Shown piece after piece: positions 1-20,311 of a stretch of DNA of 39,153 nucleotides (position 1 is its first letter; each line of letters opens with the position of its first letter). The notes under the pieces are model-generated. The model was not told the DNA's origin. It worked only from the letters and a program-made list of their open reading frames with translations, and did no database searches. The translations under genes and the position numbers were made by a program. Location: the NCBI GenBank assembly GCA_017465745.1, contig JAFTVM010000019.1, forward strand, positions 1 through 39,153. Direction: 5' to 3'. Origin of the DNA: Oscillospiraceae bacterium. GTDB taxonomy: Bacteria; Bacillota; Clostridia; Oscillospirales; Oscillospiraceae.

Positions 1-66
1 ACGCCATTATGAAGCGTGCCACACGGCACTACACCGTAGTAATTAAACCCTTGAATAACGGCTGAT

Positions 67-1500
67 TTACCCGGCCGTTTTTAGACCGCACGGCGGCCGT
101 TGGTCACCGCACCAGCGGCCGTTCGCCGCCGCAGAATGCAAAAACATACTGAGATCCTGAAGCTCGTATACTACATTCTGGAATTTTAATTTCCCTTCCA
201 GATTCTTTATCATATTTCTTAGCTGAATGGTCTCGTTGTGCGTCTTCAAGAGAATGCTTTCCAAGTTTGAAAGCTGTTTACCGCAAGCTGGTACGATGTA
301 TTCGTACATCTTCGTGAATGGCTCCAGTGCTGGATATGGAGATGCTATTTTCCAGTCGCAATGCTCCAGTAGAAATGACATGGCTTTTTCGTCTTTCAGA
401 ATAATCGCATAGTGAAGTGGTGTTAACCCAAGGCCGTCCCGATACCTGGTACATGCCGTAGGCAAGTCCTTTTGACATTTGATAGCATCATAGACTTTTT
501 GCATTTCGTGGTAGGCGAACAGGCAGTGAAACCACTCAATTGGGGTAGTGACCTCGCTCCCGTAATTCTGGCGCAAATGTGATATATGGTCACGAGTCCA
601 ATCGTACTCGTTCATGCGAATACATACATAAGTGCGGAGAATATCTGTGGTTTTATCTGTTCCGTATGTACTGCCAAGCTGTTTGTAGACTTCTGATAAA
701 GATCGGTATGTGAAATCCCGATCAACATTTGTTAGTAAGCCAATATATTTATCCACAAATGTGGAAGGGATGCTCGCAATGCTGGAACGGACATCTGATG
801 ATACCTGTTTTGGAAGAGAGTCCGTAAATTCTTTGTATTTTTCTGGCTTGAATTCGCGGAAAAGATATTCGGCCTTGACCATTGCAGCGGAATCTGCATG
901 GTCGGAGAGCTCCATCAAACTATTAAGAATGGCGTTGTATCGATCAGACAGCGCTTCGATACCCATTGCATCTTTTATTTTCTGAATAATTGCAGATGCA
1001 AGTGCATCGAATTCGCTCTTTGCTATCGGGTTTCTCCGGAATAGCTCTTCTTGAATTTTGCATAAGATCTGCCTGACCTCTGCGCCTGCTATATTCTGTG
1101 ATACGATCGATGGGCCGAGCAACCGGATTTCTTCTGTCATTGTTCGCGCAAATACAATGCCTTTTGGTCCGTCTTGGGTAATTACGTAAGACCCAAGCGA
1201 AGAATACAAAAGGCAATTACCTATCATACCCGATTCAGTCTTTCGCGGAGGATAATAATATGCGGCGCGATTTGTGAATACGATTCCTTCAATCGTTAGT
1301 GGCGCAAAAGGGATATTCCCTTTGCAGAATGCGATTATTCTTTCAGATTTGGGAATCTTGTATTCTGAATATACCTTGTCGGATCTTTTCATCAATTTAA
1401 GATCAAAACAAACCTTTTTGTAACTGCTCCTGGCTGTGTTGATAACATCGCTGAAATTATAGTTAAGGTCTATTGCCTTTTCGCTGTCGAGAATTGTCAC
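67..1500 (-). CDS. Ankyrin-repeat protein of the RiPP locus, function unknown
   Basis: Last gene of the minus-strand operon headed by the Cys-rich precursor. The start is taken as GTG at 1500 because AAAGGG lies about nine bases before it; an in-frame TTG at 1524 is the alternative and adds eight residues. The product is about 477 aa. An early segment (NIPFAPLTIEGIVFTNRAAY, about residues 60-80) resembles the opening of bacterial PH-like domains. The middle is helical. One clear ankyrin-like repeat (GLTPLHYAII..MSFLLEHCDW) lies near residue 355, and a coiled-coil-like stretch follows near the C-terminus. No signal peptide or membrane segment is seen. The last 20 or so residues are encoded by GC-rich 22-bp tandem repeats and look like an acquired tail. 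The enzymatic role is unknown. Co-location suggests a protein-interaction or target-recognition partner of the peptide system; this is inference. Confidence 0.6.
   Translation of the reverse strand: MTILDSEKAIDLNYNFSDVINTARSSYKKVCFDLKLMKRSDKVYSEYKIPKSERIIAFCKGNIPFAPLTIEGIVFTNRAAYYYPPRKTESGMIGNCLLYSSLGSYVITQDGPKGIVFARTMTEEIRLLGPSIVSQNIAGAEVRQILCKIQEELFRRNPIAKSEFDALASAIIQKIKDAMGIEALSDRYNAILNSLMELSDHADSAAMVKAEYLFREFKPEKYKEFTDSLPKQVSSDVRSSIASIPSTFVDKYIGLLTNVDRDFTYRSLSEVYKQLGSTYGTDKTTDILRTYVCIRMNEYDWTRDHISHLRQNYGSEVTTPIEWFHCLFAYHEMQKVYDAIKCQKDLPTACTRYRDGLGLTPLHYAIILKDEKAMSFLLEHCDWKIASPYPALEPFTKMYEYIVPACGKQLSNLESILLKTHNETIQLRNMIKNLEGKLKFQNVVYELQDLSMFLHSAAANGRWCGDQRPPCGLKTAG
72..137. repeat. Three 22-bp tandem repeats beginning CGGCCGTT
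   Basis: CGGCCGTT occurs at 72-79, 94-101 and 116-123, exactly 22 bp apart. Each copy is followed by a variable part containing an ACCGCA or GCCGCA core. The array is GC-rich inside an AT-richer gene and forms the 3' end of the ankyrin-protein frame. Confidence 0.6.
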
Positions 1501-1534
1501 ATCATTTTCCCTTTCTTCTCGCAATTATATGCAA

Positions 1535-1564
1535 ACAGCCTATCAGTACTGGCTGATAGGCTGT
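1535..1564 (-). promoter_or_regulatory. Perfect 12-bp stem-loop inside the RiPP operon
   Basis: ACAGCCTATCAG and CTGATAGGCTGT pair around a 6-base loop, between the 67-aa gene and the ankyrin-protein gene. On the minus strand only TTTG follows, so it is at best a weak terminator. It could instead be an attenuator or an mRNA-stability or processing hairpin that sets lower expression of the last gene. A TATAAT lies just after it on the minus strand but has no good -35. Confidence 0.55.
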
Positions 1565-1591
1565 ATTTGTTGCATTTATTTCTGCACGTAC

Positions 1592-1795
1592 TCAGTCATC
1601 GTTCGATACAAGAGAATCATAAATGTCCCCAAGGGGTGTATTTCGGAATCTATACGTTTCGGATTGATTGTCAAATAAATCAAAAATATCTTCATTTCTG
1701 ACTTTTTTGAGAGAATAGCCCTGTTCTTTAGCTATTTTTCTGACGATGCTGATATTATGCGGAGTTGCCGGCATTGACATTTCGTAAATGTTCAT
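1592..1795 (-). CDS. 67-aa protein of the RiPP operon, unknown
   Basis: A small acidic/basic soluble protein (starts MNIYEMSMPATPHN, ends DSLVSNDD) with no cysteine, signal peptide or membrane segment. AAAGGTAGAG precedes the ATG at a good distance. It begins 15 bp after the zinc-ribbon gene, in the same direction, so it is very probably co-transcribed with the maturase. I do not recognise a family. Its size and position would fit a peptide-binding or chaperone-like accessory, an immunity protein or a small regulator; there is no sequence evidence to choose among these. Confidence 0.6.
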   Translation of the reverse strand: MNIYEMSMPATPHNISIVRKIAKEQGYSLKKVRNEDIFDLFDNQSETYRFRNTPLGDIYDSLVSNDD

Positions 1796-1810
1796 TATTC
1801 GCTCTACCTT

Positions 1811-1987
1811 TCAAAAAAGTTTGCGGTTGATTCTCCAAGAGTGTGGCTTCATTTTGCCGTCTTTATCCTTGGTTTTTCTTGGGCAATTGCCGGGATCAGG
1901 GCGGCCCTCGCCTCTGGTTCGCTGCACCTTTCTTCCACAATAAGTGCAAATATACTCAGTAATACCGCATTCGCGCGCGACAGCCAT
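1811..1987 (-). CDS. 58-aa zinc-ribbon-like protein
   Basis: A short gene read from ATG at 1987, four bases after the maturase stop, with GGTGG upstream inside the maturase end, so translation is probably coupled. The product begins MAVARECGITEYICTYCGRK and contains CTYC (Cys14, Cys17), then Cys35 (NCPRK) and His48 (KPHSW). This set could bind one zinc ion. The rest is Lys/Arg-rich (KTKDKDGKMK, INRKLF), as in small nucleic-acid-binding ribbons. The spacing of the cysteines is not that of the precursor core, so I do not call it a second RiPP precursor. Its function in the locus is unknown. Confidence 0.6.
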   Translation of the reverse strand: MAVARECGITEYICTYCGRKVQRTRGEGRPDPGNCPRKTKDKDGKMKPHSWRINRKLF

Positions 1988-1990
1988 TAT

Positions 1991-3082
1991 TTACACCACC
2001 AATTCATTTTGGATTTTAACAATTGCTTGTAAGAGCGCTTGCAGTTCTGCGCCGCTTTCCTTAAGCTGTCCTAATTCCCATTGCTTTGCCCGGAAGTATG
2101 AGCGAGCTTTAATCATTATTTTGGTCAACCGACACATATTTTTGTCTCTCTTATAAATATTTCCTGTACTTGCATAGTTTGCACCAAAGCAATTAGGACA
2201 CACAGATTGAATTATACACTCTTGGCATTCGGGATCTAGCTGGCTAATAGGCAAATAGTCACCAGGGAATACGACTTCTTTAACAAATTCAGCACGTTCC
2301 TCACCTAATGTCAAAGGCATGAAAAATTGACAAGGATATTCGCATCCATTAATATCGTATGATTTTGTACTAATTCCAGCGCCACAGTAGCGAATGGGAA
2401 CACTTTGCTGGAGGGATACGTTTGAGATTCCCATCTCCAACATAGAACAAGGTTCAATATCGGGATGGCTCAAATAGAATTCTATTAGTTTTTGTAATTC
2501 GCGATGCAAAAGCGTAGTATTATTCGAATCTGACCAATCAATTCCGTGCGCAAGATTGCAGGACACAAGAAAACCGCGTTTATGCAAGTCAACTACACCA
2601 TCTGCTAAATAGGGAAGAGTTTCCTGAGAGATCGTCATCTTTACATCTTGATTTGGATATAGTTCGGAAAAGAAATCCAAATCTATATCATCGTATGAGT
2701 TGGAACGGTTGATGTTGTGCATTTCTCGCGTTCCATCGAGGCTTAATCCACAAATAAAACAATCAGCATGATCTCTTAACCATGTTTGAACTTCGTCATG
2801 AACAAGAGTACCGTTTGTAGTTGCAAAAATGGTACATGGAATATGCCCTTTCGTCATATTAACATATTCTGTGATTTGCTGAATTAATTTAAATTCTTTG
2901 AATGGTTCGCCGCCAAATAAATCAAACTCAATTCCATCTATATCATTGGTATTACTCAATTCATGATCTATAATTCTTTTAGCAGTGCACCAATCCATTG
3001 ACTTAGGAGATTTGTGGTGTTCATAGCAATAACTGCATGATAAGTTGCATGCTTGTGTAAGTGTGATTGTTACAGTTTTCAT
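1991..3082 (-). CDS. Radical SAM/SPASM peptide maturase
   Basis: A 363-aa protein. The radical SAM cluster motif CNLSCSYC is at about residues 13-20, with the GGEP SAM-binding motif near residue 57. The C-terminus has a SPASM domain: CGAG..NGCEYPC, then CQECIIQSVCPNC, then a later Cys (MCRL), enough for two auxiliary [4Fe-4S] clusters. Enzymes of this layout install thioether bonds from Cys sulfur to a carbon of another residue in ribosomal peptides (sactipeptides, ranthipeptides) or act on Ser/Cys of sulfatases. Placement directly downstream of a five-Cys peptide gene, and the absence of any sulfatase, favour peptide thioether formation. The visible Shine-Dalgarno (CGGGAG) is distant, so translation may be lower than for the precursor. 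At 363 aa it is shorter than I recall for SCIFF maturases. Confidence 0.88.
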   Translation of the reverse strand: MKTVTITLTQACNLSCSYCYEHHKSPKSMDWCTAKRIIDHELSNTNDIDGIEFDLFGGEPFKEFKLIQQITEYVNMTKGHIPCTIFATTNGTLVHDEVQTWLRDHADCFICGLSLDGTREMHNINRSNSYDDIDLDFFSELYPNQDVKMTISQETLPYLADGVVDLHKRGFLVSCNLAHGIDWSDSNNTTLLHRELQKLIEFYLSHPDIEPCSMLEMGISNVSLQQSVPIRYCGAGISTKSYDINGCEYPCQFFMPLTLGEERAEFVKEVVFPGDYLPISQLDPECQECIIQSVCPNCFGANYASTGNIYKRDKNMCRLTKIMIKARSYFRAKQWELGQLKESGAELQALLQAIVKIQNELVV

Positions 3083-3157
3083 TTCATTTTTTGAAGTACT
3101 CCCGGTTAGGAAAAGCTATCCAAATTCGATGCCAGTCCGAAAAGAATGTGCCTCATT

Positions 3158-3334
3158 TTATCGCCGAGTGCCTTTCCCAACTCTGGAGCAAGTGTTGAGG
3201 CAATTTCCCTTGCATGTGTTTTGGCATGTACCACATACAACATAGGATACAGGAAGAACGTGAGTAGTAGACAGTTGTTCGGAAATGATAGCAGAAGATA
3301 AAATATCAAGGAACTCTTTCGTTAATTCAAACAT
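3158..3334 (-). CDS. Cys-rich RiPP precursor peptide (ranthipeptide/sactipeptide-like)
   Basis: A 58-aa gene read from ATG at 3334, preceded at ideal spacing by GGAGGT. Residues 1-33 form a Cys-free, partly hydrophobic leader (MFELTKEFLDILSS..LPVSYVV). The core is CGTCQNTCKGNCLNTC, with Cys at 34, 37, 41, 45 and 49, followed by the basic tail SRVGKGTRR. The CX2CX3CX3CX3C spacing matches, from memory, the first five cysteines of the clostridial SCIFF peptides, but the sixth Cys is missing and the leader differs. Asn/Thr residues between the cysteines are possible thioether acceptors. The gene is first in a minus-strand operon with the SPASM maturase 75 bp downstream and has its own strong promoter. 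An overlapping longer frame at 3106-3309 is a shadow. No dedicated protease or ABC exporter is visible in the window. Confidence 0.85.
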   Translation of the reverse strand: MFELTKEFLDILSSAIISEQLSTTHVLPVSYVVCGTCQNTCKGNCLNTCSRVGKGTRR

Positions 3335-3390
3335 AAGTATACCTCCAATTATATGGCTGACAGATGTATATGTATATTTTGCTAATTATT

Positions 3391-3419
3391 ATTTTACGCT
3401 GATAGTTCCTGTTTGTCAA
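3391..3419 (-). promoter_or_regulatory. Promoter of the RiPP operon
   Basis: On the minus strand: TTGACA (3414-3419), 17-bp spacer, TAAAAT (3391-3396). This gives a leader of roughly 50 nt before the precursor ATG. Confidence 0.8.
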
Positions 3420-3456
3420 CCCTAGCAGTTTATTTACAAATACAACTTTTAGGGTT
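3418..3456. promoter_or_regulatory. Candidate operator: inverted repeat AACCCTA/TAGGGTT
   Basis: AACCCTA (3418-3424) and TAGGGTT (3450-3456) are inverted with a 25-bp spacer, between the RiPP promoter and the divergent regulator gene. The first arm overlaps the -35 of the RiPP promoter. The second lies between a plausible TTTACA (3433-3438) and TACGCT (3456-3461) pair for the regulator. TTACGCT also recurs at 3394-3400 and 3455-3461. A binding site for the neighbouring Cro/CI-type protein is the obvious inference. Confidence 0.45.
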
Positions 3457-3486
3457 ACGCTACTATCACTTTCTGGAGGTGTTCCA

Positions 3487-3810
3487 ATGGATTGGGTTGC
3501 AATTGGTGCAAGAATTCGCAAACAGCGTGAACAATTCGGTTATACCCGTGAAGCATTTGCGGAAAAACTCGATATAACCCCGAAGTTCTGTGCCGATATT
3601 GAACTGGGAAACAAGGGTATGTCTGTGCAAACCCTATGTAACATCTCTTCTGTTCTGAAATTATCCACAGATTATATTTTGTTTGGAGCAACACAACAGG
3701 AACATGCCTTCTCGTCTATGCTGCTTCAGCGGTGTACGCCTTTGGAACAGAAATACGCTGAGGACATTCTTAAAACGTTCCTTGTTGCCATGGACAGCAA
3801 AAGAGAATAA
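3487..3810 (+). CDS. Cro/CI-family HTH transcriptional regulator
   Basis: A 107-aa protein with an N-terminal HTH_3 fold (about residues 6-62: IGARIRKQREQFGYTREAFA, then a recognition-helix segment and LSTDYILFG). The short C-terminal helical tail probably dimerises. ATG at 3487 has GGAGG at good spacing. It is divergent from the RiPP operon and shares a 150-bp intergenic region with it, so it most likely controls the peptide locus and itself. There is no peptide-binding TPR domain, so a Rgg/PlcR-like pheromone receptor is unlikely. Confidence 0.88.
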   Translation: MDWVAIGARIRKQREQFGYTREAFAEKLDITPKFCADIELGNKGMSVQTLCNISSVLKLSTDYILFGATQQEHAFSSMLLQRCTPLEQKYAEDILKTFLVAMDSKRE

Positions 3811-3859
3811 AGACCGCAGTAAACCCAACATATTTCAACCATATATTATCTTCATAGAA

Positions 3860-3899
3860 CCACATGGAGCAATTGTACTCCATGTGGATTTTTTGTTTT
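3860..3899 (+). terminator. Intrinsic terminator, possible attenuator before the amidoligase gene
   Basis: CCACATGGAG (3860-3869) pairs with CTCCATGTGG (3878-3887), followed by ATTTTTTGTTTT. The Shine-Dalgarno and ATG of the amidoligase gene follow within 15 bases and no convincing promoter fits between, so readthrough may control the downstream operon. Confidence 0.85.
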
Positions 3900-3913
3900 A
3901 TGGAGGTAATACA

Positions 3914-5017
3914 ATGCGAGAACTGGAAACCTGTGAGATTTGTCACGAAGATTTCGCGCCGGAGGAATTGGTGGAGTTCGGGGGACTGTGGGTGTGCGGT
4001 GCCTGTTTTGAAGGAATCACTGTGGTGTGCGAGCGCTGCGGCACCCGGATTTGGAGAGAGGACAACGCAGGGGACGATGACATCTGCCTGTGTCGGGAGT
4101 GTTTTGACGATCATTATGTCCGCTGCTCCAACTGCCAGCGGATCATCCGGGATGAGGATGCGTACTATGGCGACGACGATACGCCCATGTGCTTTGACTG
4201 CAACCAGGAATACAACAGCCGGTACGCGGTCCAGGCCTATGGCTACAAGCCTTCGCCCGTTTTCTACGGCACCTCTGAGCGGTATCTGGGCGTAGAGCTT
4301 GAATTGGATTGTGGAGGTGAGTCTGATCAGAATGCTCGGACGCTGATGGAAATTGCCAATTCCGAAGAGCCGCATATCTATATCAAGCACGATGGGTCTC
4401 TGGACGATGGCTTTGAGGTGGTCAGCCACCCCATGAGCCTCGCTTACCACCTGAACACCATGCCTTGGGCGGAGGTACTGACCAAGGCGCGGTCCCTGGG
4501 GTACAAGAGCCATCAGGCACGCACCTGTGGTCTCCACGTACATATCAATCGCACGGCCTTCGGTGACACGGAAAAGGAGCAGGATGCGGTAATCGCCCGG
4601 ATCCTGTTTTTCTTCGAGAAACACTGGGAGGAGCTCCTAAAGTTCAGCCGCCGGACCCAGCGCCAGGTGGAGCAGTGGGCCAATCGCTACGGCTACAAAG
4701 ACCGCCCTCGTGAGATCCTGGACCACGCCAAGAAAAGCTACAGTGGTGTTCGCTATACCGCTGTCAACCTGACCAATGCGGAGACCATCGAAGTCAGACT
4801 TTTTCGCGGAACCCTGAAATACACCAGTTTTGTCGCCACCCTCCAGTTGGTGAATCGCATCTGCGACTGCGCCGTCTGCTTGTCCGATGACGAGATGAAG
4901 GCGATGTCCTGGACGACCTTCGCAGCAGGCTGCACCCAGCACCCGGAGCTGGTGCAGTATCTCAAGGAACGCAGACTCTACGTTAACGATCCTGTCGAAG
5001 TTGAAGCGGAGGTGTAA
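3914..5017 (+). CDS. Amidoligase with three N-terminal zinc ribbons
   Basis: A 367-aa protein. The start is ATG at 3914 with TGGAGG just upstream; an upstream frame extension runs through the terminator and is not coding. Residues 7-96 hold six CXXC pairs (7-10, 28-31, 39-42, 60-63, 71-74, 93-96), i.e. three zinc-binding units. From about residue 123 comes the glutamine-synthetase-like amidoligase (COOH-NH2 ligase) core: YLGVELELD, KHDGSLDDGFEVVSHP, CGLHVHINR and the late EVRLFRGTL motif. Family members are predicted to form amide bonds between a carboxyl group and an amine using ATP. The next gene, two bases on, is a class II glutamine amidotransferase that would supply ammonia. The substrate is unknown; the ribbons may recruit a protein or nucleic acid. 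Confidence 0.85.
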   Translation: MRELETCEICHEDFAPEELVEFGGLWVCGACFEGITVVCERCGTRIWREDNAGDDDICLCRECFDDHYVRCSNCQRIIRDEDAYYGDDDTPMCFDCNQEYNSRYAVQAYGYKPSPVFYGTSERYLGVELELDCGGESDQNARTLMEIANSEEPHIYIKHDGSLDDGFEVVSHPMSLAYHLNTMPWAEVLTKARSLGYKSHQARTCGLHVHINRTAFGDTEKEQDAVIARILFFFEKHWEELLKFSRRTQRQVEQWANRYGYKDRPREILDHAKKSYSGVRYTAVNLTNAETIEVRLFRGTLKYTSFVATLQLVNRICDCAVCLSDDEMKAMSWTTFAAGCTQHPELVQYLKERRLYVNDPVEVEAEV

Positions 5018-5019
5018 AC

Positions 5020-5946
5020 ATGTGCTGCCTGTTCGGAATTTATGACTACGCCGGTCAGCTGACCCGCAAGCAAAAATCCAAAATTCTGTCAGCGCTCTCC
5101 ATCGCTGCGGAGGAACGCGGCACGGATGCAACCGGCATTGCCTACAACGCCGATGACAGTCTCAAGATTTACAAGCGGCCGCTGCCGGCTCATCTGATGT
5201 GGTTCAAGGTGCCTGAAAGCAGCAAGGTAGTAATGGGGCACACGCGCATGACCACTCAGGGCAGCGAGCGTTTCAACGCCAACAACCACCCGTTCCCCGG
5301 CAAAGTTGGTGAGACGAACTTCGCCCTGGCTCATAACGGTGTCCTGACCAATGACAAGTTGTTACGCCGGGAGTTGAACCTCCCCGCCACCCGGATCGAG
5401 ACAGACAGCTACATCGCGGTCCAAATCCTTGAAACGGCCAGCGAGGTTAGCTTTGCCACTCTGGCTGACATGACTGAACTGCTGCAGGGGTCCTTCTCCA
5501 TCACGGTCATGACGGACAAGGATGAGCTGTACTTCATCCGGGGAAATAATCCTCTCTGCTTGATGCACTTCGAACGTCTTGGTGTCATTATGTATGCAAG
5601 TACTGAAGAGATTCTTCGCAGTGCCCTCCGACAGATCCCTGTCAAACTGGGCCGCGCTACGAAGATCCGTATCGACAGCGGAGAGATCCTGAAGATCGAT
5701 GCTGAAGGACGGATCACCAGAGGACAGTTCAACGACAGCAAGCTCTTCACCTCCAGCTACCGCCCCTGGGGAAGCTGGTTCTTCAGCGAGCCCAGTTGGT
5801 GCCGGAGCACATCGGATGAGACCAGCTATCTCGACGATCTCAAAGCAGTCGCTGCCATGCATGGGATATGGCCGGAAGATGTGGACGCCATGCTGGCGGA
5901 CGGTGCCACCGTGGATGACATCGAAGAGCTGATCTACGGCTGCTGA
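5020..5946 (+). CDS. Class II glutamine amidotransferase
   Basis: A 308-aa protein starting MCCLFGIYD. After Met removal Cys2 is the N-terminal nucleophile of class II glutaminases. Other family motifs are GHTRMTTQGS (about residue 73), NNHPF, LAHNGVLTND and ETDSY. No synthetase or isomerase domain follows, so it is a free-standing GATase. The C-terminal 60 residues are specific to this protein. The start is two bases after the amidoligase stop, with GGAGGTG upstream, so the two are translationally coupled. It is expected to hydrolyse glutamine and hand ammonia to the amidoligase. Confidence 0.88.
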   Translation: MCCLFGIYDYAGQLTRKQKSKILSALSIAAEERGTDATGIAYNADDSLKIYKRPLPAHLMWFKVPESSKVVMGHTRMTTQGSERFNANNHPFPGKVGETNFALAHNGVLTNDKLLRRELNLPATRIETDSYIAVQILETASEVSFATLADMTELLQGSFSITVMTDKDELYFIRGNNPLCLMHFERLGVIMYASTEEILRSALRQIPVKLGRATKIRIDSGEILKIDAEGRITRGQFNDSKLFTSSYRPWGSWFFSEPSWCRSTSDETSYLDDLKAVAAMHGIWPEDVDAMLADGATVDDIEELIYGC

Positions 5947-6075: not shown

Positions 6076-6630
6076 ATGCAGGTAGGCTATATTCGCATCA
6101 GCACCGTTGGACAGAATACGGCCCGTCAGGAAGTGCTGATGCAGGAGTTGGGAGTTGAGAAAGTTTTCATTGACCGGATGAGCGGAAAGAACACTGACCG
6201 CCCCCAGCTGAAGGAAATGATGGCATTTGTCCGGCAGGGTGACACAGTCATTGTGGAGAGTATCAGCCGTTTTGCCAGAAATACCAAGGACCTTTTGGAG
6301 CTGGTTGAGCAGCTGACTACGAAGGGCGTGGAGTTTGTCTCCCGAAAGGAAGCCATCGACACGACAACGCCTACGGGCAAATTCATGCTTACGATCTTTG
6401 GAGCTGTGGCAGAACTGGAGCGGGAGTATATCCTCCAGCGGCAGGCTGAGGGAATTGCCATTGCCAAGTCAAACGGTGTCTATAAGGGCCGTCGGCCGGT
6501 AATACGACCTGATTTTGAACCAGTGGTCAAACTGTGGCGCAGTAGGAAAATCACCGCCACAGATGCCATGAAGCGGCTGGATATGAAGCCGAGTACATTT
6601 TATCGCAGAGTAAAGGAGATGAGATTATGA
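6076..6630 (+). CDS. Serine recombinase (Tn3-type resolvase/invertase)
   Basis: A 184-aa protein of the usual small-resolvase length. The N-terminal catalytic domain starts GYIRISTVGQNTARQ, with Ser at residue 9 as the likely nucleophile, and contains ESISRFARNTKDL and TPTGKFMLTIFGAVAELER of the family. The C-terminal 45 residues form a short HTH (ITATDAMKRLDMKPSTFYRR). AAGGAGG precedes the ATG. The upstream palindromes are a plausible site of action. It may resolve dimers or cointegrates of the element, or invert a segment. Its stop overlaps the next small gene by four bases. Confidence 0.93.
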   Translation: MQVGYIRISTVGQNTARQEVLMQELGVEKVFIDRMSGKNTDRPQLKEMMAFVRQGDTVIVESISRFARNTKDLLELVEQLTTKGVEFVSRKEAIDTTTPTGKFMLTIFGAVAELEREYILQRQAEGIAIAKSNGVYKGRRPVIRPDFEPVVKLWRSRKITATDAMKRLDMKPSTFYRRVKEMRL

Positions 6631-6725
6631 CGGAACTGATGTGGTTTACCATCGGATTTGTGGCAACTTTGGCAATCATCACGATTGCTGACAGCATCAT
6701 CCAGTATGCTGCTTTAAGAAAATGA
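6627..6725 (+). CDS. 32-aa single-span membrane peptide
   Basis: Starts in an ATGA overlap with the resolvase stop, with AAAGGAGATGAG upstream. The product (MTELMWFTIGFVATLAIITI, then ADSIIQYAALRK) is almost all one hydrophobic helix with a short basic end. Coupling to both neighbours supports real translation. Function unknown. Confidence 0.5.
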   Translation: MTELMWFTIGFVATLAIITIADSIIQYAALRK

Positions 6726-6832
6726 TCCCTGTCATTGCAGTTGCCCTGTTGGAAGCCTTCGCCCAGGGGGCAGCACTGGCGGTGAGCGTATTTCTGCTAT
6801 GGAAAAAAGGGGATGAGGAAGGGCAGCAGTAA
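6722..6832 (+). CDS. 36-aa single-span membrane peptide
   Basis: Begins in another ATGA overlap with the 32-aa gene. MIPVIAVALLEAFAQGAALA continues as a hydrophobic helix into LLWKKGDEEGQQ, a charged tail. The two tiny genes in a row, each linked by a 4-base overlap, look like a deliberate pair. Small holin- or toxin-like peptides are one possibility, with no direct evidence. Confidence 0.45.
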   Translation: MIPVIAVALLEAFAQGAALAVSVFLLWKKGDEEGQQ

Positions 6833-6839
6833 AATAACT

Positions 6840-6869
6840 GAAAGGGGTGGACACAAGTCCACCCCTTTC
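6840..6869. terminator. 13-bp stem-loop between convergent operons
   Basis: GAAAGGGGTGGAC and GTCCACCCCTTTC form a perfect stem around ACAA. It lies between the plus-strand resolvase/peptide genes and the minus-strand hsdR and could stop transcription from both sides, although T runs are weak. Confidence 0.65.
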
Positions 6870-6887
6870 AAAGTGTGTATTGCTTTT

Positions 6888-9800
6888 TTATGCTGCAATT
6901 GCGTTGGCGTTGATCCGGTCGATCACGCTCTTGATGCCGAGCCACAATGTCAGATCGGTAAAAATCTCAACAATGCTGCCGTTGTCTGTAAAGGGAGGCT
7001 CTTGAAGCACAGACAGGTCTTTCATCAATCCATTCTGAACGATGTACTCGATGATCTGGTTGACAAAGTAAATCTGCGCGCTGTCCAGTGAGGTTTCATC
7101 CAGGTATTCGGCAAAGGCTTCCTTGGCGGCGTTCATATCCAGACCAACGATCTCACGGACGAACTCACCCAGGGGCTTGCCCTCAAACTCTGCGTCATAT
7201 TCATCCTTCGTGCCTAGCTCGCTCCACAGGATGCCTTCCAGCACCTTCACATCGTCAGAGGTCAGCGGCTCGTTGTGCTTCAGCTTGGCGATGACCGCGT
7301 TATCCTGATTCTGACGGACATAGAACTCTGCCTTGGCTTTGTAGTTCTTAAGGTCGTCATTTTCCAGGTCAGATTCCTTCCAGTCCATGGTCAGGATCTC
7401 ATCGCTGAAGTTGGTTGTGTAGGTATCCCGACCGCGGGGAATGTACTTCATCAGGTCACGAAGGCTTTCCCGGATATGCTCAAATTCGTTGATCCCGGCG
7501 TCGTCCAGATAGCTGGCATGAAGGATCCCGTTGATCAGATCACGCTGCGCCATGATCTCCGGGATATTGGCGGCAACGCTGGCAATGGCGCTGACCTTCT
7601 TCAGAAGATCTGTCCGGGCTTTCTTATACTTCTTGCCCAACAGGTAGGCAAGTTCAATGCCGTACATCAGTGCATCGAAGCGGACTGCGGAGGCGTCATC
7701 CGCATCCGGCGTAATCAGCGGAGCCAGCTCGTCAGCCATCTGCAGCGTGTTCTCATAGGTCAGCACCGCGTAGTTGTCCGGGTTGGAGAACAGCTCCACG
7801 TACTTCAGATGCTGCCGTACAGCGAAGTTTTCCTTATTCAACTCCTGCACCTTGCGCACCATATCAGCTACCAGGCTCTGGCGGAATGCGATCAGGTCAG
7901 GCGTCTGATATGCAAGATCCTGGAGTTTGAAGGCGATCTGCGCCTTCAGGCTGAAGATAGCGCCCTGGAGAGCAATCTGATTGGCAGTGGGCTTTCCGCC
8001 CGACATGCGGAAAAACTCAAAATTACCGCAGAAATCGAAGATGTAGAATTTATCCTTATCTTCGCCGTCCTTCAAGCCGGGGCACAAGCGTGTACCTCGA
8101 CCAATCATCTGCCAGAACTTTGCCTTGCTCATGACCTTCTTGAAGAACACCAGATTCAGACATTCCGGCACATCGATGCCGGTATCCAGCATATCCACGG
8201 AAATGGCGATCTGGGGCAGCTGTTTCGGATCAGAGAAGCGGTCGATGAGGTCCTGTGCGTAGTTGATGCGATTGTCAATGACCTCCGCGAAGCCGGGCAG
8301 ATGGGGATATTCTTTATTGAACACATCCCGGATCTTCTCAGCATGGTTGTGGTTCTTGGCGAAGATGATGGTCTTGCCCAGCTTCTGACCGTAATCGATC
8401 CGGATGCCCTCAGTCATCAGGACATGGAGCACCTGACGGATGGTATCCTCGTTGAACACCCACTCGTTGAGGGCAGAAGACACGATCTTCTCCGGCAGTT
8501 CGCCGTTCTCATCCGTAAAAGTATTTTCGTATGCTTCCCGTTCTTCAGGGGGCAAATCTTCGTAGGTGATGCCGGAATCCAGGAACTTCAGCTTGGTCTC
8601 CACGGACATAAAATCCACCAGATAACCGTCCTTAACGGCCTGGGCCAGCTCGTAGCCGTAGGTGGGCACGCCGCTTTCCAGCTCGAAGACCTCATATGTA
8701 TTCTTGTCAATCTCGTCCTTGGGTGTGGCAGTCAGGCCAACTAGGGGCGCATCGAAGTAGCTGAAAATATCCCGGTATTTATTGTAGATGGAACGGTGCG
8801 CCTCGTCGCAGATGACCAAATCAAAATGCCCGCAGGTGAACAACTTACCCTGCTCGTCTTTCACCGAATCGATGCAGTTCATCATGGTCTGATAGGTGGA
8901 GAACACGCAGTGGGCGGTGTAATTGTCCTTCTCCTCGCACAGATTGGTTACAGAGAGATCTGGCAGCAGATTGACAAAGCTGCGCTTGGCCTGGGTCACC
9001 AGGGAATTCCGGTCAGCCAGGAACAGAATATTCTTCACCCAGCCATGCTGCAGCAGCACATCGCACAGGGCAATGACGGTTCTGGTCTTGCCGGAGCCGG
9101 TGGCCATGACCAGCAGGGCTTTGCGGCGGTTTTTGTTGTCGAAGGCATCACAGACGGCCTTGATGGCGCCCTCCTGATAGTAGCGTCCTGCGATGTTGCG
9201 CTTGACCAGGACGTTTTTCAGGCTGGTGCGCATACTGCGCAGGTTGAAGAGCTTCTCCAGATCGCGTTTGGAGTAAACTGTGGCACATTTGCGCTCGGGG
9301 TACTGACCGTCCAGGATCCGGGTGTCGAAGCCGTTGGTCAGGAAGATGACGGGGCGGCGGCCGTGCTTCTTTTCCAGAAGCTGGGCGTAAAGCTCCGCCT
9401 GATGGCGGCCGGTGGACACATCCACGCAGGTGCGCTTGGCTTCGATGACCGCCAGGGGGCGGTGGGCATCGTCGTAGAGGACGTAATCGGCGTAACCGAC
9501 ACCTGCCTTGTTGGGCATACCAGGCAGCTCCACCTCGTTGAGCCAGTCCCGGCCCTCGACCCAGCCGGCATCCTCCAGCATGGCGTCGATGTAGAACTTT
9601 CTCGTCTCGTATTCGGAGATGTCCAGTGGCTTGGGGACATAGGTGGGCTGCTGCTCGGCGCGCCGGGCGGTGAGTTGCTCTTTGAGCTTCTTGTTTTCCT
9701 CGATCAGAGCTTCCAGATCAATGTTGTCATTGACGGGAGCCGCAGGCGGCGCGGCGATCTCCTTCGGGACGAGGGCAGCGTCAAACTTGGTTTCGGTGTA

Positions 9801-10184
9801 TTCGTCGGCGTAGCAGTAGGCGACGAAGTCCAGGAAGATGTGGAGGTTTTCCAGGCACAGGAGGGCGGCGGCCTGGGAGATCTTTCCGGTGTCATGGGCG
9901 GCGGTGTTGCCCTTTTTGCGGATCAGATCCATGCGGCGCCAGATGTCGGGTCCAACGATGGAGCGGAATTCCTCCCGGGTCATGAGGCTCTGGAGGTTGT
10001 CCTGATAGGGCATTTCCAGCTCCTTGTCCACGGAGTACATCCACTTCACGGCAAACTCCATGGCCCGGCGGCAGTTCAGAATACACGCAGCCGGGTCGAT
10101 ATGTAAGATCTTCTCCGCCGCCATGGCGACCTCCGCAAAGGAAGCGAAGCCGGGGTCAGAGAGGAGGAATTTGAAGTTGGACAT
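6888..10184 (-). CDS. hsdR: Type I restriction endonuclease, R (motor/nuclease) subunit
   Basis: A 1098-aa protein. It starts with a DUF4145-like helical domain (about residues 1-130) and a short coiled coil (about 150-180). The HsdR nuclease domain follows, with the Asp...EAK signature (YADYVLYDD.., AVIEAKRT, about residues 230-250). The SF2 motor has ATGSGKT (about 360), CDEAHRS (about 458), a TATP motif and the late arginine motif IGRGTRLCPG. The EcoEI-type C-terminal domain completes it. With HsdM and HsdS it translocates DNA using ATP and cuts unmodified DNA. Last gene of the hsd operon. No inactivating change is seen. Confidence 0.96.
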   Translation of the reverse strand: MSNFKFLLSDPGFASFAEVAMAAEKILHIDPAACILNCRRAMEFAVKWMYSVDKELEMPYQDNLQSLMTREEFRSIVGPDIWRRMDLIRKKGNTAAHDTGKISQAAALLCLENLHIFLDFVAYCYADEYTETKFDAALVPKEIAAPPAAPVNDNIDLEALIEENKKLKEQLTARRAEQQPTYVPKPLDISEYETRKFYIDAMLEDAGWVEGRDWLNEVELPGMPNKAGVGYADYVLYDDAHRPLAVIEAKRTCVDVSTGRHQAELYAQLLEKKHGRRPVIFLTNGFDTRILDGQYPERKCATVYSKRDLEKLFNLRSMRTSLKNVLVKRNIAGRYYQEGAIKAVCDAFDNKNRRKALLVMATGSGKTRTVIALCDVLLQHGWVKNILFLADRNSLVTQAKRSFVNLLPDLSVTNLCEEKDNYTAHCVFSTYQTMMNCIDSVKDEQGKLFTCGHFDLVICDEAHRSIYNKYRDIFSYFDAPLVGLTATPKDEIDKNTYEVFELESGVPTYGYELAQAVKDGYLVDFMSVETKLKFLDSGITYEDLPPEEREAYENTFTDENGELPEKIVSSALNEWVFNEDTIRQVLHVLMTEGIRIDYGQKLGKTIIFAKNHNHAEKIRDVFNKEYPHLPGFAEVIDNRINYAQDLIDRFSDPKQLPQIAISVDMLDTGIDVPECLNLVFFKKVMSKAKFWQMIGRGTRLCPGLKDGEDKDKFYIFDFCGNFEFFRMSGGKPTANQIALQGAIFSLKAQIAFKLQDLAYQTPDLIAFRQSLVADMVRKVQELNKENFAVRQHLKYVELFSNPDNYAVLTYENTLQMADELAPLITPDADDASAVRFDALMYGIELAYLLGKKYKKARTDLLKKVSAIASVAANIPEIMAQRDLINGILHASYLDDAGINEFEHIRESLRDLMKYIPRGRDTYTTNFSDEILTMDWKESDLENDDLKNYKAKAEFYVRQNQDNAVIAKLKHNEPLTSDDVKVLEGILWSELGTKDEYDAEFEGKPLGEFVREIVGLDMNAAKEAFAEYLDETSLDSAQIYFVNQIIEYIVQNGLMKDLSVLQEPPFTDNGSIVEIFTDLTLWLGIKSVIDRINANAIAA

Positions 10185-10193
10185 GGTATCACC

Positions 10194-10622
10194 TTACTTC
10201 TTTTTCTTAGTTTCGGGTTCTGTTTCCCGATATTCTTCGGCCAGTAATTTGGATAAGGCGATGTATTGCTCCTCTGCCTTGCCCCACTCATACTTACGAA
10301 TGCTGTGGTACAATTCATCTAACTGTTTATGCCACTCATTTGGAACGTATAAGTATAATCTACCAATACTTGCGCCAGCGGTTGCCATATTTTCATTTCG
10401 TTGGTATTCAATTGCGGCACCGACATCCATCAGGAAGCCCTCATAAGCTGCAAATTTCTTTGATAACTTCTCGCTTTCCTCGTTCAGTTTCCTATCCTGC
10501 TTTGCTTTCTTGAGCTGAAAACGGTTGTTTGCAATCTGGTTAAATACAGGAACAAGGATAGACAGTATAAGAGTCAATGCAATTGCAACCCATGAAGCTA
10601 ACGCGTTAATATCGATATTCAT
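10194..10622 (-). CDS. Membrane-anchored 142-aa protein inside the hsd operon
   Basis: One N-terminal transmembrane helix (ASWVAIALTLILSILVPVFN, about residues 9-28) is followed by a charged, helical, probably coiled-coil cytoplasmic part and a KKKK end. It is nine bases upstream of hsdR in the same direction. The gene is AT-richer than hsdM and hsdR. I recognise no family. It is similar in layout to small membrane proteins often carried in defence loci, but no role can be assigned. Confidence 0.7.
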   Translation of the reverse strand: MNIDINALASWVAIALTLILSILVPVFNQIANNRFQLKKAKQDRKLNEESEKLSKKFAAYEGFLMDVGAAIEYQRNENMATAGASIGRLYLYVPNEWHKQLDELYHSIRKYEWGKAEEQYIALSKLLAEEYRETEPETKKKK

Positions 10623-10666
10623 ATTCTCTCTCCCTTATATTGCTGAACAAAACTGAATCGCAAAGA

Positions 10667-11185
10667 TTACAGTTCATCACAAACCTCAGCATACAGCCAG
10701 TATTTATTTGTTCCGTGACCATAAGATGCCAAGTCTGCAAGATACATTAGCTTATAAAATGTGATACGGTGATTGCCATTTTTATAGACGTAGTAGCTGC
10801 CGTTCTTTGCTTTGATCAAACTAACCCAGGGTCGTTGGTCTTCAATGTGTTTTTTCAACATGTAAAAGTATTTTCCGCGTGTAACATGCCCTGCTCTGAC
10901 ATGCATCAGTACCTTGTGCTCACGACAAAACGCATCAATCCACGTTTTTCCTCCATAGATTTCGTGTTTTGTTCCGGCTATATCACGAATATCAACTTTA
11001 GCTTCATACGGTTTTGACAAACTTATCCCATTAATATTCAGCAATTCGCACGGCTCAAATAACTCATCGGGGATGCAATCCAGATCAACTCCAATTGAAT
11101 CCAGAAACCACCCACGGACAATCATTTCTTTGTCGTTGTATTCCCCATAATTTCTATCGGGGCAGGTTACTTCTGACCACTTCAA
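10667..11185 (-). CDS. 172-aa hypothetical protein, ParB-like patch
   Basis: A soluble protein starting MKWSEVTCPDRNYGEY. The segment SYYVYKNGNHRITFYKLMY (about residues 131-149) resembles the GNHR box of ParB/sulfiredoxin-fold proteins, which suggests nucleotide or nucleic-acid binding. The rest is not recognised. It lies 13 bp after hsdS and is probably co-transcribed with it. It could be a companion nuclease-type effector, an anti-restriction factor or simple cargo. Confidence 0.65.
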   Translation of the reverse strand: MKWSEVTCPDRNYGEYNDKEMIVRGWFLDSIGVDLDCIPDELFEPCELLNINGISLSKPYEAKVDIRDIAGTKHEIYGGKTWIDAFCREHKVLMHVRAGHVTRGKYFYMLKKHIEDQRPWVSLIKAKNGSYYVYKNGNHRITFYKLMYLADLASYGHGTNKYWLYAEVCDEL

Positions 11186-11198
11186 CTTAATCTACACC

Positions 11199-12371
11199 TC
11201 ATCCGAAATATTGCTGCATCAAGGATTTTTTCAGTAATTCCAGTTTATCAAGGCTGGATTGGATTGTCAATTTGGTTTTATTGGTTTGATCAACAAAGGT
11301 TGCAAATTGGTTCTGCAAATCAATCGGAGGAACAACTAATACCTTTTCCTCTAATTTGGATTTGGAAAGTATTCCTTTCAATGCCATGTTGATTTCCTCC
11401 ACCAAGTAATCCTTGGAAAGCAAAAGCATCACATATAAGAACATAGCATTATATTCACGAGGAACTATTGCATTAATTTGCTGATTGAAAGCTACCTTCC
11501 TATCTGTAACACAGACTCTGCCTATGCTTGAAAGGCTTCCTGCAATACAAGCCATCAAGATTGAGTTTTTCTCAACTGTCTTTCCTGCTACCATACCTTT
11601 TTTCGATAAGTACTCAGTTGCAACTGTGGGATTTAATAGACCGCTAACAATATTGTCTGTCTTTATCCACTCGATGAAGTCGCCATAATACTCATCTACT
11701 GCTCTTGAAGGTGTATTTCCTGTTACTATTACACAAGTATCCTTGAGTCGTTTCTGAATAAATCCATTGGGATTATCTTTCGGGTCACCAAACATCTCCA
11801 CAAATCGGGATTTGATCAGTTGATCCAGCTTTGCAAGCTGTTCTTTCCGCAGGGTAATCAGCTCCGTTACCTTATCGAGTTTAGCAACAACCTCTCTTTG
11901 GTATTCGATAGGCTGTTCCTGAATAGAAAAGTCCTGCACATACTGGTCGGTTTTCAGATTGTGCAAACCCGTTGTCTTGTTTTGATACTTTCTTGTACCA
12001 CCCTTAGCGTAATTTCCGTAAAGGGCATAAAACACATAGCGGGGATACCATGTAGATTTATCACGAACGCGAAGCACACCTGTAAAATTATTAAACAGGT
12101 ACGTATTCGGCTCACCATCATAATAGACAACCCGACCAACCGGTTGCTTATCACTACCGCCAGATTTCTCAATAATAATATCACCGGGCTGGAGATACTT
12201 TTGTGAAAGGTCTTTTTTCTGAATATCTCTCGTGACAACAGTGTTGTAGTTGACTACGCCATCATTAGTAAAGTTCGTTGTACGCAAAACGGGAATACCG
12301 ATGCCTGCATCATCTTCATTGCCCCATTCGCCGGAAATGGCTTTTCCTGTAATATCAATCAACTTTGCCAT
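11199..12371 (-). CDS. hsdS: Type I restriction-modification specificity subunit
   Basis: A 390-aa protein with the two-fold HsdS plan: first target-recognition domain (about 1-150), central conserved helix (QREVVAKLDKVTELITLRKE, about 162-181, then FVEMFGDP), second recognition domain (about 205-345) and a matching C-terminal helix (LQNQFATFVDQ..LLKKSLMQQYFG). It sets the bipartite DNA target of the methylase and nuclease. Its ATG overlaps the hsdM stop by one base. Its base composition is more AT-rich than hsdM and hsdR, consistent with exchange of specificity genes. Confidence 0.93.
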   Translation of the reverse strand: MAKLIDITGKAISGEWGNEDDAGIGIPVLRTTNFTNDGVVNYNTVVTRDIQKKDLSQKYLQPGDIIIEKSGGSDKQPVGRVVYYDGEPNTYLFNNFTGVLRVRDKSTWYPRYVFYALYGNYAKGGTRKYQNKTTGLHNLKTDQYVQDFSIQEQPIEYQREVVAKLDKVTELITLRKEQLAKLDQLIKSRFVEMFGDPKDNPNGFIQKRLKDTCVIVTGNTPSRAVDEYYGDFIEWIKTDNIVSGLLNPTVATEYLSKKGMVAGKTVEKNSILMACIAGSLSSIGRVCVTDRKVAFNQQINAIVPREYNAMFLYVMLLLSKDYLVEEINMALKGILSKSKLEEKVLVVPPIDLQNQFATFVDQTNKTKLTIQSSLDKLELLKKSLMQQYFG

Positions 12372-13918
12372 TACAGCATCCCCTCCAATTCTGTCAATCC
12401 CTCCGTGATCTGCATTTCTAGTTCGTGCAGGTCGGTCAGGATCTCCTGGGTGGAGGGGTACTCCACGGGGACGTACTCGGTCTTCTTGTACTTGTTGATG
12501 GACAGGTCATAGCCATTTTCCACGATCTCCGCCTTGGGGACGAAGAAGGATTTTGCCGTGCGGGGGTTCTCTGCTTCGTTGTAGGGGGACGGATTGCCAC
12601 ACCAGTCTGCGGACTGGTTCGCAATGACATTGGTATTGAAGGAGCGGAACCGGGCAATGATGTCGGGGATGTCGTTGTCCTTGATCTCCGTGCGCTTGTC
12701 GTCCAGGCTGAAGCCGTCGGCGGTCATGTCGTAGAACCAGACCTTGTCCGTGCCGCCGTGGCCTGTCTTGGTGAAGATCAGGATGCCCGTGGACACGCCT
12801 GCGTAGGGCTTGAACACGCCGCTGGGCATGGAGATCACAGCCTCCAGCCGGTTGCCCTCCACCAGCTCCTTGCGAATATCCTTATGGGCCTTGGAGGAGC
12901 CGAACAGCACGCCATCGGGAACGATGCAGGCGCACCGTCCGCCGGTCTTCAGCATCCGCAGGAACAGCGCCAGGAACAGCAGCTCCGTCTTCTTGGTCTT
13001 GCAGACTTTCAGCAGGTCAGCGGACACCGTATCGGCGTCCAGGCTGCCCTTGAAGGGGGGATTGGCCAGGATCAGGTCGAATTTCTCCTTGTCCGGGTTC
13101 TGGTCGGACAGGCTGTCCCGGTACTCGATGATGGGGCTATCCACGCCGTGGGTCATCATATTCATGGCGCCGATGCGCAGCATGGTGCGGTCCATATCGT
13201 AGCCGTGGAACATGCCCGTCAGGAAGTGCTGCTTCTTCGCCTTATTGAAGAAGATCTCCTTCTTGTGGTTGGCGGTTAGGTATTCCTCCGCAGCTACCAG
13301 GAAGCCCGCCGTGCCGCAGGCCGGGTCGCAGATGGTATACTCGGGCTTGGGCTGCATCAGCTCCACCATCATCTTGATGATATGCCGGGGCGTGCGGAAC
13401 TGGCCGTTGATGCCGGACTGGCTCAGCTTGTTCAGCAGGTATTCGTACAGGTCACCCTTGTTATCATCGGGGTTCTTGGCCATCAGCTCATACATGGTGT
13501 CCATAGCATCCACCACGCGGGACAGCATCAGGGGCGTGGGCAGCTTGAAGATGGCGTCGCCCATGTACTTGGAATATGCGCTGTCCTTGTCGCCGTGGAG
13601 GTTCTTGATGAAGGGGAAGACCCACTCCTGCATGACGGTGTACATCCGCCCGGCGTCGAAATCGTGGAATACGGACCACTTCAGCTGCCGTCCGTCGATC
13701 TTCCGGTCGCCGATCTGCACCTCGTCGGCAAAGATGCTCTGGTAGGGCAGGCCCAGCATGGCGCTCTCCTTGGCGCGGAGGTTGTCAGTGGTATCCAGGT
13801 CGTGGATAAACATCAGGTAAGTCATTTGCTCGATGACGTCCAGAGGGTTGGTCAGACCGCCCGTCCAGAAAATCTCCCACAGGCTGTCTACTTTGTTTTT
13901 CAGTTCACCAGTAAGCAT
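12371..13918 (-). CDS. hsdM: Type I restriction-modification methyltransferase subunit
   Basis: The N6-adenine methylase subunit of the type I complex, about 515 aa. It has the N-terminal HsdM helical domain (WEIFWTGGLTNPLDVIEQMT), the SAM-binding motif DPACGTAGFL (about residue 200) and the catalytic NPPF (about residue 285). The start is ATG at 13918 with GAGG eight bases upstream. An in-frame ATG 33 bases earlier overlaps the -10 of the promoter and so cannot be the start. First gene of the hsdM-S-orf172-orf142-R operon. Confidence 0.95.
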   Translation of the reverse strand: MLTGELKNKVDSLWEIFWTGGLTNPLDVIEQMTYLMFIHDLDTTDNLRAKESAMLGLPYQSIFADEVQIGDRKIDGRQLKWSVFHDFDAGRMYTVMQEWVFPFIKNLHGDKDSAYSKYMGDAIFKLPTPLMLSRVVDAMDTMYELMAKNPDDNKGDLYEYLLNKLSQSGINGQFRTPRHIIKMMVELMQPKPEYTICDPACGTAGFLVAAEEYLTANHKKEIFFNKAKKQHFLTGMFHGYDMDRTMLRIGAMNMMTHGVDSPIIEYRDSLSDQNPDKEKFDLILANPPFKGSLDADTVSADLLKVCKTKKTELLFLALFLRMLKTGGRCACIVPDGVLFGSSKAHKDIRKELVEGNRLEAVISMPSGVFKPYAGVSTGILIFTKTGHGGTDKVWFYDMTADGFSLDDKRTEIKDNDIPDIIARFRSFNTNVIANQSADWCGNPSPYNEAENPRTAKSFFVPKAEIVENGYDLSINKYKKTEYVPVEYPSTQEILTDLHELEMQITEGLTELEGML

Positions 13919-13949
13919 AGTAAGTCCTCGCTTCGACAGATTTTCTTTC

Positions 13950-13978
13950 ATTATAACCGCTTACAGGGGAAAGGTCAA
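13950..13978 (-). promoter_or_regulatory. Promoter of the hsd operon
   Basis: Minus strand: TTGACC (13973-13978), 17 bp, TATAAT (13950-13955), giving a leader of about 25 nt before the hsdM start. Confidence 0.78.
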
Positions 13979-14054: not shown

Positions 14055-14230
14055 AGTGTCCACCATCAAAAAATGTGATTTTTATGCGTATATCCCATGA
14101 AAATGGTGGAAATGGTGGGCGAATTCTGCTATACTGGCTCATATACAGAAAGTGTCCACCATGTCCACCAAAATAAGGGTATATACATAGGTAAAAAATG
14201 GTGCCCTGAAAATGGTGAAATTGGTGGACG
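14055..14230. repeat. Iteron-like repeats of GTCCACCA / TGGTGGAC
   Basis: AGTGTCCACCAT is at 14055-14066 and 14151-14162, with GTCCACCA directly after at 14163-14170. A 25-bp unit (TGAAAATGGTGRAAWTGGTGGRCG core) is at 14097-14121 and 14206-14230 in the other sense. This fills the 330-bp gap between the divergent hsdM and the next operon. It may be a replication-initiator or repressor binding region. Confidence 0.6.
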
Positions 14231-14247
14231 TAATGTGGGGGGAGTAT

Positions 14248-15941: not shown

Positions 15942-16117
15942 GTTTCGGGAAGAACGGTACACAATGGGGGAGTCAAGTGCGCAGGTTGTAAAAAAACAAA
16001 TTTTATTCTTACGAGCTGGGCCAATGAAAAATTTTAAAGTTGGTGCTATATTGAATGCACACAGGGAAAACCAATCGGCCTGTATCCCTGTGCAGGCCGA
16101 AAAAGGAGTTTTGCAAC

Positions 16118-18801: not shown

Positions 18802-18822
18802 TGTGAAAAAAGAAAGGTGTGT

Positions 18823-20310: not shown

Positions 20311-20311
20311 C

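Follow-up and report, generated by a model that had tools for sequence, protein, structure and literature searches.

Does a short Cys-rich peptide encoded beside a radical S-adenosylmethionine (SAM)/SPASM enzyme belong to SCIFF when its cysteines are spaced like those of SCIFF peptides? The question is raised by a locus of an Oscillospiraceae bacterium (assembly GCA_017465745.1, contig JAFTVM010000019.1). The stretch of DNA analyzed here, called the window, is this entire contig (C17, 39,153 bases). An earlier reading of the letters, termed here the original prediction, had described a locus for a ribosomally synthesized and post-translationally modified peptide (RiPP) that is SCIFF-like but distinct and is carried by a mobile element. 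Our best reading of the sequence comparisons is that the locus represents a rare, unnamed branch of the ranthipeptide-type class that appears to lack the RiPP recognition element (RRE) and is not SCIFF. The locus is part of a clade of its own that spans several phyla, and among the named families the CXXX-repeat target family is the nearest one; both points had escaped the original prediction.

A Cys-rich peptide paired with its maturase across phyla

The precursor gene was found as the original prediction had drawn it, with the same frame and coordinates, a Cys-free leader, five Cys and a ribosome-binding site (GGAGGT, 6 nt ahead of the ATG). The maturase, two tiny genes, the promoter-like site and a divergent helix-turn-helix (HTH) regulator likewise stand where they had been placed (see the table below). 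The leader (residues 1-33) contains the stretch F-x-L-T-K-E-x-L-x-x-L, which looks helical by eye. In the core CGTCQNTCKGNCLNTC (residues 34-49) the Cys are spaced 2-3-3-3, and Thr36, Thr40, Asn44 and Thr48 each immediately precede a Cys. Clusters of four Cys occur in two of the 227 window open reading frames (ORFs) of 40-125 aa, namely the precursor and one ORF overlapping a tRNA gene, and the chance level was 12 of 6264 ORFs in 20 mononucleotide shuffles. Among the family models the precursor matches TIGR04114 alone, and weakly so (14.4 bits against a cut-off of 20, E 0.041). Neither the precursor (tblastn) nor region 1500-3500 (blastn) found relatives in plasmids. The maturase carries a CX3CX2C motif at residues 12-19 and seven SPASM Cys, all of which are invariant across eight aligned enzymes and also in a six-enzyme set. 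Of the traits of the ranthipeptide class, the pairing of a radical SAM/SPASM maturase with a neighboring precursor that contains Cys is present.

The pairing holds well beyond the window. Selecting loci by the enzyme alone and not by the peptide gave 11 clade loci with 12 enzymes, which come from Bacillota, a metagenome-assembled genome (MAG) of Coriobacteriaceae, an archaeal MAG, a Phocaeicola plasmid and one unassigned fecal scaffold. In all 11 a short Cys-rich ORF lies on the same strand at most 103 bp from the clade enzyme, and in ten it has a four-Cys cluster, the peptide of L017 having three Cys. The original prediction had named the absence of the Cys peptide frame from homologous loci as a sign against a RiPP-type locus; the frame was kept throughout. 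Within 700 bp of the enzymes, 16 of 67 same-strand ORFs are Cys-rich, whereas the other strand has 2 such ORFs among 72; the 16 count the L018 peptide for both its enzymes and include two downstream ORFs that we did not count as precursors (43 aa in L007, 64 aa in L104). Two precursor copies each are present in L010, L104 and L017. In L022 the clade maturase adjoins an ORF (9824-10168) that encodes a double zinc ribbon followed by a CDCAVGECDCDG tail; this ORF is a doubtful precursor.

Two relatives share the leader above chance level. In a comparison that left out L163, L104 and L022, the resemblance of the L103 leader to that of the window was reached by none of 2000 shuffles, and that of the two L010 copies by three and one of 2000. 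The cores repeat C-x-[G/N]-[T/S/N]: among 30 CXXX blocks, X2 is G or N in 25 and X3 is T, S or N in 21. Ten peptides went into this count, all but L008 contributing blocks; it did not include L163, L022 or the second precursor copies of L104 and L017.

Clade enzymes are sporadic in the genomes searched. At E 1e-40 one was found in 2 of 136 genomes of the host genus (the host itself and G924) and in none of the 40 best-quality genomes. Matches beyond E 1e-60 occurred in 2 of 300 genomes of the host family (own and G270) and in 3 of 398 of the host phylum (own, G644 and G318). In the order of the archaeal relative (1 of 147 genomes) and in the family of G644 (1 of 45) the only carrier was the starting genome itself. 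The relatives with 42-46% identity come from MAGs titled Coriobacteriaceae (L007), Clostridia (L008), Methanomethylophilaceae (L009, the title of which mentions sheep rumen) and Firmicutes (L010); going by isolate names, we take the L007 MAG to be from rumen and the L008 MAG from rabbit. Further relatives are found in G270 (38%), in G644 and G318, in G924 of the host's own genus (L163, 38%), on a Phocaeicola massiliensis plasmid (36.6%) and on a human fecal scaffold deposited as phage (38%). Of the maturase relatives in 61 plasmid and 36 phage records, none reaches 60% identity. Over full length, viral contigs reached at best 29% identity with the window enzyme or a five-row profile, and 32% among the matches listed for an eight-row profile.

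Relation to SCIFF and to the CXXX-repeat family

In a midpoint-rooted tree of 41 radical SAM/SPASM proteins, assembled without PapB, sulfatase maturases or L163, a branch with support 99/95 separates the window enzyme and ten relatives from the rest. The nearest group is that of the CXXX-type (TIGR04115-like) enzymes (joint branch 100/98, 24 rows), and the 11 SCIFF-type enzymes are placed elsewhere (99/94). Of the latter, nine of ten checked pass the TIGR03974 cut-off; L113 is nearer QhpD. Branching within the clade is mostly unresolved, and the placement of L104 and of the second L018 enzyme is less sure because their branches are long. Two NCBIfam models, TIGR04115 and PapB, lead the matches of the maturase. 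The maturase scores 135.2 bits against TIGR04115 over residues 2-330 (cut-off 350), 121.7 bits against the PapB model NF047865 over residues 2-311 (cut-off 340) and 67.7 bits against the SCIFF model TIGR03974 over residues 2-132 only (cut-off 425). TIGR04115 is likewise the top-scoring model for the L163 enzyme (132.3 bits). The closest solved chain by phmmer is 5wgg, a 'Radical SAM domain protein' (residues 2-332, E 3e-13, 52.6 bits), which we take to be the SCIFF maturase CteB.

A sulfatase maturase, which the original prediction had named as a possible refutation, was considered and rejected. TIGR03942 reaches 55.2 bits over residues 9-129, while TIGR04115 and PapB score higher and nearly over full length, and 4k37 reaches 36.1 bits over residues 9-140 in the phmmer search, below 5wgg; this judgement is based on scores, not on the tree.

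The enzymes of the clade also differ from SCIFF maturases in architecture. With 11 residues ahead of CX3CX2C the window maturase has no N-terminal extension; the 12 clade enzymes have 11-34 such residues, whereas 43 SCIFF-type proteins have 41-141, with a median of 104. The SCIFF-type set includes near-copies, and its member with 41 residues was probably truncated where its contig begins. The RRE of CteB sits N-terminally in the account given in PMC8326336. Judged by length and not by an RRE profile, the clade enzymes appear to have no room for an N-terminal RRE. Ten of the 12 carry CX2CX5CX2C as their SPASM motif (L022 and L163 fall outside the pattern as written), as do all 12 CXXX-type enzymes, whereas all five SCIFF-type enzymes compared have CX2CX5CX3C.

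The SCIFF spacing given in the original prediction was checked on actual loci. The 43 SCIFF-type loci yielded 24 distinct Cys-rich upstream ORFs from the 29 loci with at least one. Of these, 21 end in the spacing 2-3-3-3-6 (in L128 after two further Cys) and three do not, one of which (L129) resembles a SCIFF peptide in which another residue has taken the place of one Cys. The window core with 2-3-3-3 is hence the SCIFF spacing minus the final CX6C. A radical SAM/SPASM enzyme beside a short Cys-rich peptide is common to both systems. The window peptide has five Cys instead of six and a different leader, and it gave no match to TIGR03973 up to E 1; the system is also sporadic in the genomes searched. 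The best of 21 SCIFF-type leader matches was reached by 5 of 500 shuffles, which is unremarkable since 21 trials were made. The host genome (95.49% complete, 7.08% contamination) holds no other SCIFF maturase match at E 1e-10; the window enzyme alone appears, below cut-off. SCIFF membership was rejected on the hidden Markov model scores, the separate clade, the N-terminus, the SPASM spacing and the leader, so that SCIFF-like yet distinct remains an apt description. PMC13289728 uses TIGR03973 as the ranthipeptide rule, and this rule would miss the window peptide.

With the CXXX-repeat family (TIGR04115; targets TIGR04114/TIGR04117) the locus shares the nearest model, the nearest tree group, the SPASM motif and the short N-terminus; the targets of that family are CXXX repeats, and the window peptide matches TIGR04114 below cut-off. 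It differs in that its target is a peptide of 58 aa with five Cys and a leader of its own, whereas the target in locus L015 has 362 aa and 62 Cys, and in that its enzyme stays far under the TIGR04115 cut-off. The PapB family (freyrasin) offers a nearly full-length match and has Cys thioethers to polar acceptors, as proposed for the window. Its peptide PapA has a CX3D/E motif instead, and leader recognition is expected to occur via an RRE (PMC9413430). Nine SCIFF maturases score 279-298 bits with the PapB model, far more than the window enzyme. In the literature searched, largely by titles and the starts of abstracts, we found no description of the clade and no paper naming TIGR04115; neither CXXX-repeat maturases nor genes of this kind in phage tails were covered.

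CXXX-type enzymes also occur on viral contigs. L015 (554-11894, a viral contig) combines baseplate and weak tail-fiber matches with the 62-Cys CXXX-repeat protein. It also has a radical SAM/SPASM gene of the TIGR04115-like kind, which scores 296 bits (cut-off 350), and a match to reverse transcriptase (phrog_1423); the locus may pair a tail protein modified by radical chemistry with a diversity-generating retroelement. Gene order is similar in two Faecalibacterium loci, L011 (a 34-Cys protein, a TIGR04115-like enzyme with 297 bits and a sub-cut-off RVT_1 match) and L012 (a 63-Cys protein). Two further viral-contig maturases (L048:2324-5354 and L024:4956-6035) group with the CXXX-type enzymes in the tree; in L048 the second gene further on encodes a protein of 115 aa with 12 Cys.

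Proposed mechanism and competing explanations

In the known ranthipeptides, as PMC8326336 and PMC9413430 present them, Cys is linked at non-alpha carbons to Thr (CteA), Asp/Glu (PapA) or Asn (NxxcA), and 2 Da are lost per PapB link. We consider it likely that the window locus is a ranthipeptide-type RiPP system, probably on a tRNA-Val island, in which the leader is bound without an RRE and thioethers are formed at non-alpha carbons. The precursor would be transcribed from a promoter that is probably controlled by the divergent Cro/CI-type protein, and the maturase would bind the helical-looking leader directly. The CX3CX2C cluster would cleave SAM to give a 5'-deoxyadenosyl radical, which would abstract hydrogen from the polar residue in the third X position of CXXX (Thr, Ser or Asn), at a carbon other than the alpha carbon. 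The Cys sulfur, held at the SPASM auxiliary cluster, would then form the thioether with a loss of 2 Da each. Up to about four thioethers might form along the core with Thr36, Thr40, Asn44 and Thr48 as acceptors; we propose this number because Thr or Asn precede the Cys and known ranthipeptides use such acceptors. The leader would be removed, and the product might be exported or be active in the cell via functions encoded outside the operon.

Several results weigh against this reading. The leader similarity is marginal for L009 (41 of 2000 shuffles) and L007 (104 of 2000), and the same test gave none for L008, L017 and L018. Outside the Cys, the core residues of the window show no significant likeness to clade cores (618 of 5000 permutations) or to SCIFF cores (612 of 5000), nor a preference for either. 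In each of its 25 top NCBIfam matches the maturase stays under the cut-off of the model, and Pfam Radical_SAM is also below its own (26.0 versus 29.5), with Fer4_12 above. The chemistry is assigned by analogy because no characterized enzyme is close to the maturase. PapB enzymes above cut-off were found in none of 199 genomes and hence none is in the tree; this search was unspecific, with below-cut-off matches in 197 of the 199 genomes and in 14 of 14 controls. The taxon of several relatives on MAG contigs could reflect binning error. Finally, transporter and protease genes are both missing from the operon.

The likeness in spacing might suggest a divergent SCIFF system in which the peptide has lost the last CX6C and the maturase its RRE, and the host genome indeed has no other SCIFF maturase match. 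However, the TIGR03974 match is low and covers the N-terminal part, TIGR03973 does not match, and the clade, the SPASM spacing, the short N-terminus and the unremarkable leader match all point away from SCIFF, which makes this descent highly improbable. A radical SAM RiPP with other chemistry, that is sactionine (alpha-carbon) thioethers, epimerization or carbon-carbon links, deserves more weight but is still unlikely. Sactipeptide, nif11 and cyclophane maturase models also match the radical SAM core, and sequence alone cannot give the chemistry. These models cover mostly the N-terminal 130-160 residues, whereas TIGR04115 and PapB match nearly over full length, and the cores are CXXX repeats with a mostly polar X3.

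Cys-rich peptides can bind metals, and one may ask whether the peptide is metal-binding, redox-active or unmodified while the radical SAM enzyme acts on another target. The double zinc ribbon with its short Cys tail in L022 and the zinc-ribbon-like look of the 58-aa ORF behind the window maturase would fit. Against this stand the enzyme-peptide pairing in every clade locus, the leader similarity in two of them and the TIGR04115-like enzymes with a neighbor that matches CXXX target models (L015), and we regard it as very unlikely.

Operon, neighboring genes and the tRNA-Val island

Table. Features of the locus and of the surrounding island in window coordinates
Feature	Position	Strand	Evidence or remark
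485-aa ORF	67-1524	minus	ORF list; alternative GTG start perhaps 8 codons in
Stem-loop	1535-1564		between 67-aa ORF and 485-aa ORF
67-aa ORF	1592-1795	minus	ORF list
58-aa ORF, zinc-ribbon-like by eye	1811-1987	minus	ORF list
Radical SAM/SPASM peptide maturase, 363 aa	1991-3082	minus	ORF list, profile matches, alignment, tree
Precursor peptide gene, 58 aa	3158-3334	minus	ORF list
Promoter-like site TTGACA-17-TAAAAT of precursor operon	3391-3419	minus	11/12 matches
Inverted repeat, two 13-nt arms	3418-3430 / 3444-3456		85% complementary
Cro/CI-type HTH regulator, 107 aa	3487-3810	plus	HTH_3 E 3.5e-9; divergent from precursor
Amidoligase_2 gene, directly followed by glutamine amidotransferase-type gene	3914-5946		
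Resolvase	6076-6630		between cluster and integrase
Type I restriction-modification	6888-13951		between cluster and integrase
Tyrosine recombinase (integrase)	18817-19980	plus	Phage_integrase E 8e-17, phrog_1 E 3.4e-64
Probable attachment (att) core, 50 bp	20307-20356		covers 3' end of tRNA-Val(gac)

On the minus strand the precursor is followed after 75 bp by the maturase, after 3 bp by the 58-aa ORF and after 15 bp by the 67-aa ORF. The promoter-like site is the top scorer among 12 such sites in window 1-4000. Its assignment rests on its position upstream of the ribosome-binding site, because such sites are about as common in shuffles (9.5 +/- 3.3 expected by chance). The inverted repeat overlaps the -35 element and is a candidate operator for the divergent regulator, whose matches to RstR- and DicA-type models fall below cut-off. 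Neither the 58-aa nor the 67-aa ORF has a family match above cut-off in the NCBIfam and Pfam searches, and the 58-aa ORF has no relative in the phage collection. We are unsure whether the 485-aa ORF is a member of the operon; it shows a single weak ankyrin-like stretch below cut-off and has no relative in phages or plasmids. Repeat proteins also occur near other clade loci, with Sel1/TPR in L007 (2166-4087) and BspA leucine-rich repeats in L009 (1858-2709); the matches in the window and in L007 are weak and the co-occurrence may be chance.

Some of the other clade loci carry additional genes. In L018 (615-5923) two clade maturases flank one precursor and an ABC transporter follows, a candidate export gene, and in L017 (3062-4843) an M18 aminopeptidase between the two precursor copies is a candidate for leader removal. 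A second radical SAM/SPASM gene follows the clade maturase in L007 (6496-7857; CcpM TIGR04068, 166 bits, cut-off 500). The ORF directly after the L008 maturase (6111-7043) has a weak, sub-cut-off match to the Trp_DMAT prenyltransferases (E 3.1e-4).

The cluster probably sits on a tRNA-Val island, as gene content and repeats suggest. The integrase adjoins two tRNA-Val(gac) genes, and the 50 bp of the putative att core recur exactly on contig C86 (1507-1556) without the 5' half of the tRNA, flanked by an ORF above the excisionase cut-off (TIGR01764) and a pyroglutamyl peptidase gene. The orientation fits a direct repeat in the order tRNA, island (window 20306 back to 1), gap, C86 1-1506, att, chromosome. 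The island is truncated at window base 1, since the window is the whole contig. Contigs C17 and C86 are, however, separate in the assembly and could stem from two elements, and no empty site emerged from 31 genomes of the genus, in which the matches listed place the peptidase gene apart from the tRNA pieces, on another contig. With integrase, tRNA, att copy and excisionase-like gene, the mobile cargo of the original prediction is probable. No conjugation family was among the matches of the proteins tested, and two large ORFs (14212-15888, 558 aa; 16055-18271, 738 aa) have no Pfam or PHROG match at E 0.01. The window (1-140) and L140 (1-139) both open with a similar G+C-rich repeat of 22-bp spacing in the same orientation, which is perhaps the reason why the assembly broke there.

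What the product might do for its host can be considered in the light of SCIFF. These best-known ranthipeptides occur widely in Clostridia, the enzymes that make them bear an RRE, and their function is uncertain. SCIFFs are reportedly tied to quorum sensing, going by the title of one report. They have also been argued to be non-antimicrobial because they are so widespread in Clostridia (PMC8326336). As a tentative idea, and a doubtful one, the clade may form a ranthipeptide family without name or RRE that passes between bacteria and archaea in animal guts on mobile islands, with a maturase that reads an amphipathic leader alone and a cross-linked peptide, controlled by a phage-type repressor, that serves the element or the host in communication or competition. 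A compact RRE-less clade with short substrates would offer a simple, small enzyme for studying leader recognition and repeated thioether formation. Searches based on TIGR03973/TIGR03974 would overlook this clade, which is scattered in accessory DNA across several phyla.

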